From: Aeromonas molluscorum 848
GTDB taxonomy: Bacteria; Pseudomonadota; Gammaproteobacteria; Enterobacterales; Aeromonadaceae
Length of the DNA: 35,787 bases
Reading direction: 5' to 3'
Assembly: GCF_000388115.1 (NCBI RefSeq)
Contig: NZ_AQGQ01000022.1
Location: 1-35,787 of the forward strand
The translations under genes were made by a program, and so were the position numbers. The notes below the pieces were generated by a model. That model made no database searches. It was not told the DNA's origin and saw only the letters and a list, made by a program, of their open reading frames with translations. Position 1 is the stretch's first letter; each line of letters opens with the position of its first letter. This document shows positions 12,625 through 17,559 of the stretch, one piece after another.

Positions 12625-13245
12625 ATGAAGATACCTGGCTGGCCCTTGCTGGCGTTTGCCTTGTCTGTTCCGGCCCATGCCGGCACCGCCACCAGCGGAG
12701 TGCTGGAACCGACGGCCAGTGCCCGCGCCAAGGTGGCCGAGTTTCTGGTCTGGGAGCGCAGCGTCAAACCGAGCGGCCTCTATCAGGCAGACCTGGGCGG
12801 TGCGTTGCCCAACATCGTCTCCCCCGAGCTGCTCTGCCTGCTCAATGCCGCCTCCAAAGCGCGGGAGATAGCCACTCGCGAAACCCCGGACGAGAAGCCC
12901 CCCTTTGTTGAGGGCAACCCCTTCCTGCCCAACGCCTGGGATCATCTGCTGGGCTCGCAGATCCTCTCGTCCAGCCCGATCCCGGGCCATCAGGGGGAGA
13001 GCAAGGTCAAGGTGCGCTTCACCTTTGGCGAGCCGGGCACCCCGCTCGACGCCACCAGCGGCACCTACCGTTTTGTCAGCACCTATCAGGTGAAGGAGGG
13101 GCCCCAAGGCGCCCGCATCACCGACATCGATGCTGGCGGCAGCTGCGATTTCTGCCAATCCGGCAGCCTGCGCGCCGCCCTCGTTGATACGCTCGCCGCC
13201 TATCCCGCCGCAGGGGCAGCTCAGTGCAAGGGGTTGGCGAAATAG
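12625..13245 (+). CDS. Exported protein of unknown function
   Basis: A 206-residue protein. The start at 12625 is chosen for the AAGGAAGA Shine-Dalgarno and because the first 19 residues form a signal peptide (KIPGWPLLAFALSVPAHA). The mature part has few cysteines; two sit close together in GGSCDFCQSG near the C-terminus and could form a disulfide or bind metal. I do not recognise the family. The gene stands alone between the cysS terminator and its own terminator. Its last codons and its terminator are duplicated downstream (13705-13800), the mark of a past recombination at this 3' end. Confidence 0.75.
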   Translation: MKIPGWPLLAFALSVPAHAGTATSGVLEPTASARAKVAEFLVWERSVKPSGLYQADLGGALPNIVSPELLCLLNAASKAREIATRETPDEKPPFVEGNPFLPNAWDHLLGSQILSSSPIPGHQGESKVKVRFTFGEPGTPLDATSGTYRFVSTYQVKEGPQGARITDIDAGGSCDFCQSGSLRAALVDTLAAYPAAGAAQCKGLAK

Positions 13246-13321
13246 GGCTTTGGCTTGGGTCAAAGCGTGTTTGGGGAATAGAAATAAAAACCGCAGCTCA
13301 AGGCTGCGGTTTTTGATTGTG
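13226..13321. repeat. 96-bp direct repeat, copy 1 (gene 3' end plus terminator)
   Basis: Runs from the last codons of the exported-protein gene through its terminator. By eye about 84% identical to 13705-13800 (15 differences over 96 bases, no gaps). Confidence 0.9.
13286..13314. terminator. Bidirectional terminator after the exported-protein gene
   Basis: AAAAACCGCAG / CTGCGGTTTTT form an 11-bp stem with T-tracts on both strands. Confidence 0.92.
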
Positions 13322-13704
13322 CCCTGCCGTGAAGCCACGGCATCCTTCGGTCAGATCCCCTCGCCCCTTGGGGGAGAGGGCCAGGGTGAGGGGAGCTAAC
13401 GTCATTCCCCGTCTCGTCCAATGGAGCGGACGGAGCGCCGCAGACGGCACTTTGGTCTACGCCATCCCTGGCTTCGGTCAAAGCCCGCTTCGAACTTCCC
13501 TGTTCTCGCGCCAAATCGGGGTCGAGCAGTGCTCGCCCTGATCCGATTTGGCCCCTATGCCGACTGCGGCTGCGCCATCATCCCTGATGGCGCTCCTGAC
13601 CCGTTGAACTCGACTCGGCGGTTTGCAGGGGGAACCAATACCGTTCCCGCCCGTGGCTTTAGCTTGCATGTTGACTGCCTTTTTCGCTGAAAGGGGAAGG
13701 TAGA
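13322..13704. repeat. Diverged repeat element, left copy
   Basis: About 380 bases between the two 96-bp direct repeats. The core 13453-13555 (CATCCCTGGCTTCGGTCAAAG, then GCGCCAAATCGG and CGATTTGGCCCC) aligns with the minus strand of 16735-16840, and a weaker match continues (CTCGGCGG, CAGGGGGAACC). No gene is convincing. The surrounding 13246-13845 holds only this element, the direct repeats and terminators. Confidence 0.75.
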
Positions 13705-13800
13705 GCAAGGGGGTGGGGAAATAGGGTTTTGGCTTGAGTTAAAATGTGTCAGGGAAATAGAAATAAAAACCGCAGATCAGGGCTGCAGTTTTTATTTGTG
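13705..13800. repeat. 96-bp direct repeat, copy 2
   Basis: Diverged copy of 13226-13321, including the remnant of the gene's last codons and stop. It lies directly downstream of darG, and its hairpin serves that operon. Confidence 0.9.
13765..13793. terminator. Terminator of the darT-darG operon (duplicated copy)
   Basis: AAAAACCGCAG / CTGCAGTTTTT has one mismatch in the stem. On the minus strand it lies 53 bases after the darG stop and is followed by a T-rich run. Confidence 0.85.
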
Positions 13801-13845
13801 GTTCGTGATGGATTTTATAAAAAACTTTACATGTCATGATTGAGT

Positions 13846-14976
13846 TCATTCAAAATAGTTACGTAGCTGAAGATAAAAGTTAAATCGCTTTGCTCCAATT
13901 TCTAATGCAGCAGCTTCATCTTCGGGAGAGCTGTTTTCGGATACATAATAATATGTATCTAGTGATGACCAAGTAATTTTTCTCTTATGCTTTTGTAACC
14001 AATTAATCTTACTGGAGAAAAATATAATTTTATTAGAAATATGCATTCTCGCAAAAACAGAAGGCAGGAATTCCTTTTTATCAAAACCTACTACAGGATT
14101 GCCAATTGAAAGCAAGTTTGGTTTTTTCTGTTGCTTTACTGACGATATTTTTTTTACAGATTCATAGAATCCAGATGGCAGGAAACATCCACAGACTAAG
14201 CCTTTAGCAGAAAATTCAAAAGCTAATTTTTTCTCAAAAGCAGTTCCACCTAACAAAACACTGTGTTTTTCCTGAACACAAAATTCAATGAAGTTACGTA
14301 CAGTGTTAATTTCACTTTCCTTTGGCTTAGTACTACAGATAATGGAAAAGTCGTACGTAAATTTTCTTTTATTTTTGGGATAGTAATATAAATCTTTTTT
14401 TGTATAGTGTTGCAAGTTTTTCGGATATTCATCGGTCGAATTTTTTATAACGCCGGCTTCCACTGGATTAAGAAGTCTCTCGTAATCAGATAATGTTGTT
14501 TCGACAAGACCAGCCTTAATTGAATCATAAGGCTCAAATACGTATATGTGTGCAGGTGAATTTTCCAACCTGTCACTAATCATGTCTCGTACTCTATTCC
14601 AATCTAATCCTCCATGACCACAGCCTAATGCTGGGAGTGTAACCACTTTTCCACTTTTATTTTCTAGGTAAGTGGAAAGCCATTTCAACCCATCATCAAT
14701 GTAATGATATTCAGATGGTTTCTTCCAGTGATCCTTTGTAGGGAAGTTTATTATCTCTATTTCCTTCGAGATCATGTCTTTTTGAATCCAGACTGAAGGC
14801 GAACCTGGTCGAATAATTCCTGAGCTGCATTGTACTACGTAGTCATTGAACATTTCGGGGAATCGCTTCTTAAATGCAAGCGCGACCCCCGCGCCCATTA
14901 CGCCTACACAGTTAACGGTGTTGACCATAATGTCGGCATCAAATTCGAAAAAATCTCCTGATACAAATTCAATCAT
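13846..14976 (-). CDS. darG: DarG-like macro-domain antitoxin with DprA/SLOG-like C-terminal domain
   Basis: A 376-residue protein. Residues 1-~155 are a macro domain of the DarG type: MVNTVNCVGVMGAGVALAFK, then FPTKDHWKKPS (K81, candidate catalytic lysine) and LPALGCGHGGLDW. DarG macro domains remove ADP-ribose from thymidine on DNA and neutralise DarT. Residues ~205-345 look like a Rossmann-type fold close to DprA/SLOG proteins: FSIICSTKPKESEINTV, VLLGGTAFEKKLAFEF, CGCFLPSGFY, LLSIGNPV. In classical DarG the C-terminal part sequesters DarT, so this domain may do so or may bind a nucleotide ligand; that is inference. Its ATG overlaps the darT stop by four bases (ATGA), so translation is coupled. 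Codon use is AT-rich, unlike the neighbours. Confidence 0.88.
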   Translation of the reverse strand: MIEFVSGDFFEFDADIMVNTVNCVGVMGAGVALAFKKRFPEMFNDYVVQCSSGIIRPGSPSVWIQKDMISKEIEIINFPTKDHWKKPSEYHYIDDGLKWLSTYLENKSGKVVTLPALGCGHGGLDWNRVRDMISDRLENSPAHIYVFEPYDSIKAGLVETTLSDYERLLNPVEAGVIKNSTDEYPKNLQHYTKKDLYYYPKNKRKFTYDFSIICSTKPKESEINTVRNFIEFCVQEKHSVLLGGTAFEKKLAFEFSAKGLVCGCFLPSGFYESVKKISSVKQQKKPNLLSIGNPVVGFDKKEFLPSVFARMHISNKIIFFSSKINWLQKHKRKITWSSLDTYYYVSENSSPEDEAAALEIGAKRFNFYLQLRNYFE

Positions 14977-16319
14977 GAACCGTTACCTTGCAAATTTTGG
15001 AGCGCTTCATTCCTCAGGTTATCAATTTCACCAGAGACTTGCATCAACCAAATATTATTAAAAGAACCAATGTCAGCCTTGCTCAGAGCCACCAACATAT
15101 GGATGTCTTCTGGAGAGGTTACTATATCGAATAATTGGCTTTTGTTCCTCCCTTTAGCCACGATTTCACCCAATAAGTCATCATAGGTAACCAGCATCAC
15201 AATCTTCCGAACTAGATCGGTAGGCAAGACGGGTAAATCCTCCGTCAAAATTCGTTTCAACATGGGCAGGGACTTTCTAGGATGTTCCTCATCAGCTTTA
15301 TTCATAATGTTATTGGGCCAGCGAGTTTTTGGCCCTTTGCCTATATCATGTAGGTAGGCGGCCAGCTCCAAGATCTCACGATGAGTAGCATCTAACTGGT
15401 GGTACTCATGAGAGTTCTTAATAAGATCGGCAACACGCCTACTATGAGCGCCAACATCTCCACGATGAGGACCGTAGTTTGCAATCAAACCATTAATATC
15501 CTCTAGTTCCTTTATTGCTCCGAAGTTGGTTCGAACAGCATGCAAGGCATGCCCTAAACTCTGGAATTTAGGTATCCCTTGTCTTGGATGAGAATCTACA
15601 TCAGTAACGACCTGTTCGAATAAACTCTTGAGGACAATAGGACCTGTCACCAAAGAGCAACTCCAGTTTCCTGGCTGACAATAATAATGTTCTCCACCAC
15701 CCTCTACAACATTTGGTGCGGCAACGCCTTTATTTCTAAAAATCAGTCTTACCTGTTCTGATATATATTTGTTCCATGTTATAATCTGATTGACTTCATT
15801 CAGATGCACATGGTCTGGTAGCAAAAGTTCTGCCATCTTTCGATGTTTCTGATTCTCGTCAATATAACTCCATCCATTGCAGTCGATAGTTTGCCAATCC
15901 AATGTATCAAGCTGCTCTGCATTATTATTTCCAGAATGAAAGGTCGGCGGAATCACTGTGTTCGCTGATGCGTTGGTAAAATATGCGCCTAGTCTTGCTT
16001 CAAGCAGAAATATAGGAACTGAAAAGTAGATAATGAACTGCTGATCCACATTTTTTTTATGAAAAACAGCCAACTGCATTGGTGTTTTCTTAGCAAAATA
16101 AAATGGCACATAATCATGTACGACACGACCCCCCGCACCGGGCACTTGCATCTGTGCCCGACGCCTCTGTATACCTTCCTCTGCAACGTTTACATGGTTT
16201 ATGTTCCGAGCATTCTTCTGATTTGTTGAATAAAGTCCGTTATCAATAATGGATTCAAGATTCTCTATCGATGTAAAGTGATATGCATTACGATGTCTGT
16301 ATTTATCTGGAACTGCCAT
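14973..16319 (-). CDS. darT: DarT-type DNA ADP-ribosyltransferase fused to an HD domain
   Basis: A 448-residue protein, about twice the length of a standard DarT. Residues 1-~205 match DarT (DUF4433): YHFTSIENLESIIDNGLYS, the NAD-loop motif HDYVPFYFAKKTPM (69-81), and RKMAE with E164 as the likely catalytic glutamate. DarT attaches ADP-ribose to thymidine in single-stranded DNA. Residues ~285-420 form an HD-superfamily domain: AHSRRVADL (H292), LELAAYLHDIGKG (H324-D325), EHPRKS (H346), and possible fourth ligands D380 or D416 (ALSKADIG). HD domains are metal-dependent phosphohydrolases, often acting on nucleotides. The start at 16319 has AAGGA ten bases upstream. The operon is AT-rich and lies between inverted repeats, which indicates transfer. 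ADP-ribosylation is well supported; the role of the HD part is unknown. Confidence 0.88.
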   Translation of the reverse strand: MAVPDKYRHRNAYHFTSIENLESIIDNGLYSTNQKNARNINHVNVAEEGIQRRRAQMQVPGAGGRVVHDYVPFYFAKKTPMQLAVFHKKNVDQQFIIYFSVPIFLLEARLGAYFTNASANTVIPPTFHSGNNNAEQLDTLDWQTIDCNGWSYIDENQKHRKMAELLLPDHVHLNEVNQIITWNKYISEQVRLIFRNKGVAAPNVVEGGGEHYYCQPGNWSCSLVTGPIVLKSLFEQVVTDVDSHPRQGIPKFQSLGHALHAVRTNFGAIKELEDINGLIANYGPHRGDVGAHSRRVADLIKNSHEYHQLDATHREILELAAYLHDIGKGPKTRWPNNIMNKADEEHPRKSLPMLKRILTEDLPVLPTDLVRKIVMLVTYDDLLGEIVAKGRNKSQLFDIVTSPEDIHMLVALSKADIGSFNNIWLMQVSGEIDNLRNEALQNLQGNGS

Positions 16320-16639
16320 TTATTCGTTATCCTTTTCAGTTTTTCAATAAACGGGCTATAGATTAGATTAGTGAAGCGTAATCAGACGTTCGAGAAATAA
16401 GGTGGCTATCACTACAAAGCATTCACTATCGGTCCTTCATTATAAAACCGCTCCCCGATAGGGATATGTACCGCTTGCCGTTGTACTCATAATGATTTTT
16501 TCTATGAAACCATGTCGATGGCGCTTGTTGCATAGGGGTGACAATTTGGTCTCGCCATAGGGCTGGCAAGGGCCGGTTCAGAGATAACAACTCTCCAGAT
16601 CGTTGCCCCGAATAGCACAGGGTACTTTTAACTTGCCTC

Positions 16640-17262: not shown

Positions 17263-17559
17263 ATGGCAAACCAGTCAGTAAGCAGTAACAACAAAATTAT
17301 GCAGGCAGGGCGCTGGCTCGCGGCCAGGGTGGCCGAGCTCTGTGAGTTCCAGCAGCGCATCTGGGTGGTGAGCATCATCAAGGATGCCTACACAGACACC
17401 TTCATCGTCAATGAAGACAGCTTCGAGGAGCCGATGCAGTGGATGCACCGCAAGGGCTACAGCGCCGAGCTGCTGCAACGGGTCAATGAGATGCAGCGCT
17501 CCCAGGTGATCCAGCTTGAGCTCGGGGATGTCAGCCATCGCCTGATGCGGGTCAAATAA
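17263..17559 (+). CDS. Small protein of unknown function
   Basis: A 98-residue soluble protein with a moderately acidic C-terminal half and no signal peptide or membrane segment. Composition is convincing (for example VVSIIKDAYTDTFIVNEDSF and MQWMHRKGYSAELLQRVNEM). The Shine-Dalgarno is weak (GAGCGAGCCC). It stands alone after the REP-like palindromes. I do not recognise the family; a small conserved Aeromonas protein is my guess. Confidence 0.65.
   Translation: MANQSVSSNNKIMQAGRWLAARVAELCEFQQRIWVVSIIKDAYTDTFIVNEDSFEEPMQWMHRKGYSAELLQRVNEMQRSQVIQLELGDVSHRLMRVK

Follow-up and report, generated by a model that had tools for sequence, protein, structure and literature searches.

In the stretch of Aeromonas molluscorum 848 DNA analysed here (contig NZ_AQGQ01000022.1, 35,787 nucleotides; hereafter the window), two adjacent genes encode a DarT toxin fused to an HD phosphohydrolase domain (DarT-HD) and a DarG-type antitoxin in which a macrodomain is followed by a domain predicted to be DprA-like. 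The pairing of DarT-HD with a DprA-type DarG is a recurrent, new variant of DarTG. DarTG systems serve in phage defence and in the control of replication, are under active study and are described in two classes. An earlier note on this DNA, made from the sequence alone, knew of no characterised DarTG with such a fusion, and we likewise found no description of the architecture in the literature searched, a scope that leaves out most subscription papers and in which an earlier mention could have been missed.

The computations reported here establish the domain architecture, conserved active sites in both toxin domains, the grouping of the toxins in one clade, a matched change in the antitoxin, mobility, and linkage or fusion to relatives of DUF499/DUF1156 defence proteins. 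What sets this variant apart is a second enzyme added to the toxin and, in the antitoxin, a domain like that of ShosTA-type antitoxins in exchange for the toxin-sequestering one. Taken together, we read the pair as a mobile DarTG-type module of a distinct subfamily, very probably directed against phages, with a two-enzyme toxin and a two-domain antitoxin that work as proposed below; we put the probability of this reading at about 0.5.

DarT fused to HD in a rare but widespread subfamily

Both halves of the window toxin score above the Pfam cut-offs: DarT (PF14487) on residues 13-206 with 137.1 bits (cut-off 22.5; E 8.1e-40) and HD (PF01966) on residues 290-374 with 33.3 bits (cut-off 22; E 6.6e-8). 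The NCBIfam model toxin_DarT (NF048013) gives 132.3 bits, below its 150-bit equivalog cut-off, and PADLOC models, like those of NCBIfam, call the two window proteins DarT and DarG. The AlphaFold2 model of the toxin (16 sequences) has a mean predicted local distance difference test score (pLDDT) of 91.6 and a predicted template modelling score (pTM) of 0.84; this prediction and that of the antitoxin were made without the three plasmid rows. In a comparison with solved structures by VIA, Thermus DarT (7omv) fits residues 4-213 with Z 26.1 (root-mean-square deviation [rmsd] 2.0 over 201 aligned residues). For residues 246-448 the match is the HD half of a 'tRNA processing enzyme' (3wfo-3wfs, which we take to be CCA-adding enzymes) with Z 15.4-15.8, the best being 3wfp (Z 15.8, rmsd 3.6, 180 aligned). 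PPX/GppA (Z <=11.0) and SAMHD1 (Z <=9.8) rank lower, and a PDB sequence search with a profile of the HD half gave nothing better than E 0.02. As modelled, the second half has an HD fold with H...HD...D metal ligands. The earlier note had divided the protein in the same way, into a DarT domain of ~205 N-terminal residues with E164 and a C-terminal part with HD-type ligands, and family models, structure and relatives all bear this division out.

Twenty-four DarT-HD proteins were aligned; they come from several phyla and include copies on plasmids and in viral contigs. E164, N120, M162, H292, H324, D325, H346, D381, R391 and D416 are identical in all 24, and R54, H68, Y74 and M81 in all 23 rows that cover them (L018 lacks its first ~30 residues and L027, a partial sequence, its first 117). 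The ligands H292, H324, D325 and H346 named in the earlier note are therefore invariant; where it had hesitated between D380 and D416, D416 holds throughout and position 380 is Asp in 10 sequences and His in 14, next to the invariant D381. Because both halves are conserved across phyla, chance can be ruled out as the origin of the architecture. A frameshift or mis-joined open reading frame (ORF) was rejected since the fusion recurs intact in many genomes, and a Cas3-type HD nuclease because the PADLOC and NCBIfam matches to Cas3 are weak and short (E 8e-5 and above).

Relatives with both halves were found in one further species of the same genus and one of the same order, on plasmids of Klebsiella, Agrobacterium and Sinorhizobium, in Xanthomonas, Duncaniella, Desulfosarcina, Novosphingobium, three rhizobia and one Sumerlaeota genome, and in viral contigs, a second Bacteroidales genome and a second Sumerlaeota genome. 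The subfamily is rare nonetheless. PF14487 matched 27 times in 369 gammaproteobacterial genomes, mostly in open frames of 200-264 aa (the earlier note had put classical DarT proteins at about half the length of the window toxin); only one of the 27, the window's own, is a DarT-HD fusion. The longer frames among them are that of the window (448 aa), a DarT-macrodomain fusion (404 aa) and one of 372 aa, in which an HD profile search found no HD. With the starting genomes set aside, further DarT-HD proteins came from samples of 61 genomes (G001 and G059), 295 genomes (G959) and 40 genomes (G1464), and none from samples of 397, 317 and 178 genomes. A DNA match to DarT-HD is present in 8 of 5,426 complete Escherichia coli genomes. 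Three of these eight loci were read: the toxin gene is whole in two and split by IS50R in MDR_56 (L174 4109-7022), where the insertion lies within the DarT half and the HD half and DarG are kept.

In a tree of the DarT domain (64 rows, short matches dropped) the 18 DarT-HD rows form one group with support 97/98, so that one fusion event suffices; the window toxin lies closest to the rows of its congener and of Xanthomonas pisi. The DarT-HD rows also group together in a tree of HD domains, with support of only 88/82. Two single proteins that join DarT to a macrodomain (L047 1438-2649 and L106 886-2052) fall in the group that neighbours DarT-HD in the tree of the DarT domain, and a 493-aa DarT (L121 1450-2928) has a second half with no Pfam match at E 0.05. 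A structure search of viral proteins returned two matches below E 0.001, neither of them shown with both domains.

The antitoxin partner of DarT-HD

The genes darG and darT overlap by 4 bases (ATGA). The DarG macrodomain matches Thermus DarG (5m31) with E 1.9e-32, and all 19 DarT-HD partners examined carry the N[FL]PTK motif with its lysine. A catalytic role for the lysine of the DarG macrodomain is described in the accessible text of PMC7003065, and the window protein, judged by its motif, keeps this catalytic-type lysine (Lys81).

The C-terminal domain (model pLDDT 87.0, pTM 0.85) has ShosA as its top structural match (8zva; Foldseek E 1.9e-7, Z 15.6), followed by DprA (Z 15.1-15.3) and LOG/MoCo-carrier folds (Z <=11.5). 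The DarG family model NF048014 does not match residues 153-376 alone, a PDB sequence search with the C-terminal half alone found no credible match, and the same domain of the Desulfosarcina relative exceeds the Pfam DprA cut-off (33.3 vs 29.6 bits). The model indicates a DprA-type Rossmann/SLOG fold, with a DprA/ShosA-like domain standing where the canonical DarT-sequestering C-terminal domain of DarG would be expected. A comparison by hhalign of 15 DprA-like with 21 canonical C-terminal domains gave a probability of 0.1, on which ground we rejected the idea that the canonical domain is merely a diverged DprA. Canonical C-terminal domains (e.g. L004 2079-3155) show the motif YGPYAxNLxHVL in the alignment, which presumably resembles Panacea/SocA-type antitoxin domains.

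The HD fusion and the change of antitoxin domain occur together. In a survey of DarG neighbours, which the earlier note had suggested, a DprA-like antitoxin was found at 20 of 23 DarT-HD loci with a visible macrodomain gene vs 0 of 50 plain DarT loci. The first set gave 16/19 vs 0/45 (Fisher p 2e-12, a value that overstates independence because L010/L018, L016/L017 and L008/L028 are near copies), and later loci with the macrodomain gene in view gave 4/4 vs 0/5. Re-fetched duplicates (L001, L045, L057-L066) were left out of the first count, as were L050, L108 and L121, where no macrodomain gene is in view; two of its 45 plain partners are the DarT-macrodomain fusions L047 and L106, and for five the sequence read gives fewer than 300 aa (L007, L033, L035, L046, L109; L033 lies at the end), so that their C-termini may be incomplete. 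At L170 the contig ends before the macrodomain gene. The swap is also present in the E. coli loci read, and of the three DarT-HD loci that lack it, one (L027) is cut by the contig end.

This pattern bears on two alternatives. An ordinary DarTG2 carrying an inert HD passenger would fit the recognition of both proteins as DarT and DarG by PADLOC and NCBIfam, and the naming of a DarT family protein in public E. coli records, but it is very improbable in view of the single clade, the retention of HD in every sampled member, the full conservation of its active site and the replaced antitoxin domain. The HD domain could also be a regulator, either a nucleotide- or metal-binding switch of DarT or a docking site for the DprA-like domain, in which case the co-occurrence of the two domains is what contact between them would lead one to expect. 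We regard this as distinctly unlikely: catalytic ligands that are invariant in 24 of 24 sequences across phyla are unusual for a purely regulatory domain, and the Duncaniella muris locus has the HD domain with no DprA-like partner beside it.

That locus (L013 5323-8369) holds two toxins, DarT-HD and a plain DarT, and one canonical antitoxin; no DprA-like domain was found when sought in its DarG. In E. coli APEC O2-211 (L173 6286-9479), DarT-HD is 71% identical to that of the window and DarG 46%, with ~700 bases between the genes; given these unequal identities, toxin and antitoxin have seemingly been exchanged separately. At L156 (3214-3597) a separate small DprA-like ORF (128 aa, weak dprA match) directly follows a plain DarG; the two may be the macrodomain/DprA-like pairing in split form.

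Defence context, proposed working and alternatives

Selected neighbouring genes were scanned at 17 loci. Operonic linkage or fusion to relatives of DUF499/DUF1156 proteins was seen in three genomes of two phyla. In Desulfosarcina, genes for an SNF2/DrmD-like helicase, DarT-HD, DarG, a DUF1156 methyltransferase and DUF499 lie on one strand, with gaps of 3-25 bases between ORF coordinates. The antitoxin of one Sumerlaeota genome is a single protein of macrodomain, DprA-like domain and DUF1156 methyltransferase that runs off the contig; that of the other joins a macrodomain to DUF1156, with DUF499, Piwi-domain, SIR2_2, Abi_C and NOV_C genes nearby. The Pfam DUF1156 cut-off is exceeded at L019 (65.3 bits vs 24), and a SIR2-HerA pair adjoins the Sinorhizobium copy of DarT-HD. 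From this context, phage defence by DarT-HD/DarG is likely. As side observations, a Sumerlaeota contig (L128 2117-19489) carries a dense defence-like cluster around DarT-HD, made up of a DUF499 relative, a Piwi-domain protein (44.1 bits) and SIR2_2, Abi_C and NOV_C genes, and in Agrobacterium vitis (L017 8756-12595) a large helicase near DarT-HD matches PADLOC DpdF, PsyrT and GajB.

Loci with DUF499, DUF1156 and Snf2 are called 'BREX-related' systems in the accessible text of PMC12839542; its main text contains none of the words DarT, DprA, SLOG and ADP-ribosyl. The module shares with these DUF499-centred systems the place of the Desulfosarcina pair, between helicase and DUF1156 genes, and the DarG-DUF1156 fusion of the two Sumerlaeota genomes; it differs in that their effectors, as described, are nucleases.

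The acceptor pocket of the toxin was compared by alignment to 7omv. Window residues R54, H68, Y74, M81 and E164 correspond to R51, H65, Y71, M78 and E160 of Thermus DarT2, and S118 and M162 occupy the positions of H119 and Q158. According to the accessible parts of PMC9967889 and PMC11281641, H119 of Thermus DarT2 locks thymine and R51, Y71 and M78 serve the chemistry beside the key glutamate E160; the corresponding residue of DarT1, N104, holds guanine, as stated in an excerpt of PMC11543638. The position of H119 is His in 19 and Asn in 17 of 36 plain DarTs, and that of Q158 is Gln in 26, Glu in 8 and Met in 2 (13 divergent or partial loci were dropped from these counts, namely L007, L041, L046, L047, L049, L050, L076, L098, L106, L108, L109, L112 and L121, in addition to the partial L027); the latter position is Met in 24 of 24 DarT-HD proteins. 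The pocket loop of DarT-HD is one residue longer, and the invariant Asn120 may therefore take over from H119. On this alignment, DarT-HD keeps the catalytic Arg, Tyr, Met and Glu and not the base-holding His119. Its acceptor should not be assumed to be thymine, and we question, for DarT-HD, the thymidine part of the automated label 'DarT ssDNA thymidine ADP-ribosyltransferase family protein' that public E. coli records carry. The earlier note was right about the fusion, and unaware that it belongs to a recurrent subfamily with a rebuilt antitoxin and an acceptor pocket unlike that of thymidine-type DarT.

Among non-fused proteins, the best profile matches of the HD domain are HD-Pnk (hhalign 129.1), CCA-adding enzymes (105.6) and GlnD (101.8); DarT-HD was compared with family alignments, other HDs entered as single sequences, and only these first three scores are comparable. 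The nearest kin varies by method, being HD-Pnk by profile, CCA by structure and GlnD by tree (with a long-branch warning). HD-Pnk, CCA-adding enzymes and GlnD act on nucleotidyl or terminal phosphoesters on macromolecules, the substrates of their HD domains being a 2',3'-phosphate or UMP-Tyr. They are closest to DarT-HD by profile and structure and have a matching ligand set, and they differ in that the loci examined show none of them joined to an ADP-ribosyltransferase. A Deinococcus operon joins a ligase, PARG and an HD-polynucleotide kinase (PMC11833690, accessible part). This kinship, together with the operon, speaks for a second cleavage step, at a phosphoester of the nucleic acid or of its ADP-ribose adduct, and we infer that the HD domain is an active phosphoesterase on one or the other. 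A SAMHD1-like deoxynucleoside triphosphatase was rejected as first choice for its lower structural score. In Proteus mirabilis (L011 2238-4074) an RNA ligase gene is followed by one for an HD-polynucleotide kinase, a nucleic-acid repair pair that was the source of the first HD lead.

Two other substrates have to be weighed against this one. The HD domain might hydrolyse free nucleotides, such as deoxynucleoside triphosphates or NAD-derived compounds (e.g. ADP-ribose phosphates), starving the phage or tuning NAD while DarT alone acts on DNA. The superfamily includes nucleotide hydrolases, SAMHD1 (Z <=9.8) and PPX/GppA (Z <=11.0) appear in the structural list, and GppA is the best HD-type match in Foldseek's own list. 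SAMHD1 and GppA nevertheless score well below the CCA-type HD (Z 15.4-15.8), and fusion to a nucleic-acid-modifying enzyme and kinship to HD-Pnk, CCA and GlnD favour a macromolecule-bound phosphoester; we consider free nucleotides an unlikely substrate. Alternatively, DarT-HD would ADP-ribosylate RNA or nucleic-acid ends and HD would trim 2',3'- or terminal phosphates, which would make it a two-step toxin aimed at tRNA or other RNA. The nearest HD domains (HD-Pnk and CCA enzymes), the Deinococcus operon (PMC11833690, accessible part), and the replacement of the base-holding His of DarT2 by Ser or Ala and of Q158 by Met throughout the subfamily would suit such a target, which is quite unlikely all the same: DarT2 is reported inactive on RNA in the accessible text of PMC11281641, the macrodomain is of DarG type, and the invariant Asn120, two residues on, could hold the base.

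We hypothesize that the module with its nucleic-acid-bound HD substrate works as follows. The DprA-like domain would bind the toxin, single-stranded DNA or both and so restrain the toxin, the role that the DarT-sequestering domain plays in canonical DarG. This restraint would be disturbed when a phage replicates or recombines, and the freed DarT would move ADP-ribose onto a base in single-stranded nucleic acid. A second, metal-dependent reaction would follow, in which the HD domain cleaves a phosphoester of that nucleic acid or of the ADP-ribose adduct, and the macrodomain would strip ADP-ribose and thereby shield the host as long as the complex holds. In this proposal we infer that both enzymes are active and that phage is stopped, as well as the direction of regulation and the HD substrate.

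Several observations weigh against this proposal. The HD substrate is assigned from kinship, and the HD tree joins DarT-HD with GlnD, opposite HD-Pnk and CCA, with a long-branch warning. In plain Foldseek, DarTs alone pass E <=0.001 and no HD does, the first HD-type match being GppA at 0.017. The whole window DarG matches NF048014 over residues 2-333 with 242.1 bits (cut-off 250), and this match, taken alone, suggests a canonical DarG C-terminus. At the Duncaniella locus, the genes after DarT-HD encode a plain DarT and then a plain DarG without a DprA-like domain, and the macrodomain-DUF1156 protein at L019 has only a weak trace of that domain. The position aligned with H119 is Ser in 23 of 24 DarT-HD proteins and Ala in one, a mapping that depends on the alignment; as H119 of the thymidine type is not retained, DarT-HD may act on a different DNA target. 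Linkage to DUF499/DUF1156 was found at three of the 17 scanned loci, among selected neighbour genes, and the NCBIfam matches to DUF499, DUF1156 and DrmD lie far below equivalog cut-offs (e.g. 138.3/1200, 174.8/1000, 375.3/610), so that these neighbours are to be regarded as relatives of DUF499, DUF1156 and DrmD proteins.

A bolder version of the proposal, which we offer as doubtful, is that the pair constitutes a third DarTG class in which toxin and antitoxin were rebuilt together: the acceptor would be neither thymine nor guanine, the HD domain would cut the ADP-ribose adduct or the strand and so leave a lesion that the macrodomain cannot undo, the DprA-like domain would be a sensor of phage or single-stranded DNA that sets the toxin off, and the pair would serve as an exchangeable effector in BREX-related systems. 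If HD does act on the modified strand, ADP-ribosylation of DNA could be more than one reversible mark, and if the DprA-like domain senses single-stranded DNA, this would directly answer how DarTG is triggered. Natural copies in E. coli make the role of HD and the sensing by the DprA-like domain testable in ordinary laboratory strains.

Compared with DarTG2 of EPEC, Thermus and M. tuberculosis, the window pair has in common the DarT fold, the equivalents of R51, H65, Y71, M78 and E160, the order of toxin then antitoxin in an operon, and an adjacent macrodomain antitoxin with a catalytic lysine. It differs in a toxin twice as long with an HD domain, in a DarG C-terminal domain unrelated by profile, and in Ser and Met at the positions of H119 and Q158. 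ShosTA, whose toxin ShosT is a phosphoribosyltransferase-type protein, SyrTA and RqlHI share with it a DprA-like antitoxin domain, ShosA being the top structural match; their toxins are of other kinds, and in the window the DprA-like domain shares a protein with a macrodomain and has DarT-HD as its toxin partner. DprA homologues are described as the antitoxins of these three systems in the accessible part of PMC9122126. With DarTG1 (DarT1-NADAR) the pair shares a DarT-family toxin in a presumed reversible DNA ADP-ribosylation system, but its antitoxin is a macrodomain and that of DarTG1 a NADAR domain, and the accessible excerpts on DarTG1 mention no HD.

Locus and mobility

The features of the locus are listed in Table 1.

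Table 1. Features of the DarT-HD locus, in positions of the window.
Feature	Position	Strand	Basis
DarT-HD fusion gene, 448 aa	14973..16319	minus	ORF with ATG start; Pfam DarT and HD; model
DarT ADP-ribosyltransferase domain, residues 13-206	15702..16283	minus	PF14487; alignment to 7omv
HD phosphohydrolase domain and helical surround, residues 246-448	14976..15584	minus	PF01966; 3wfp; conservation
DarG-type antitoxin gene, 376 aa	13846..14976	minus	Macro PF01661; PADLOC DarG residues 1-196
DarG macrodomain, residues 1-150, Lys81 (NFPTK)	14527..14976	minus	5m31 match
Predicted DprA/ShosA-like domain, residues 151-376, in place of canonical DarG C-terminal domain	13849..14526	minus	model, 8zva, DprA
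Low-GC island	13600..16500	.	guanine-cytosine (GC) profile; between cysS and gene at 17263

The DarT-HD module is mobile. In the window it lies in an island of about 33-44% GC within surroundings of 58-65%. A congener (G001) has the DarT-HD locus at the same place, and the site looks empty in L136 and L138, two further genomes of the genus in which cysS lies almost next to the 17263-type gene; the remaining loci are uninformative on the insertion site, cysS not being in the ~1.5 kb read on each side. Elsewhere DarT-HD adjoins lambdoid replication, NinG and Q genes or a tail-fibre gene (L028-L030), and in an avian E. coli it is flanked by icd and intE, a position that we take to be the e14 site. 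A scan for promoters and terminators found fewer than expected by chance. One of the viral contigs that carry a DarT-HD/DarG pair also holds a Mom-like DNA-modification gene (L030 8656-9375). In the window, a 124-nt direct repeat (13198-13321 and 13677-13800, 78% identity) lies at the low-GC boundary downstream of darG.

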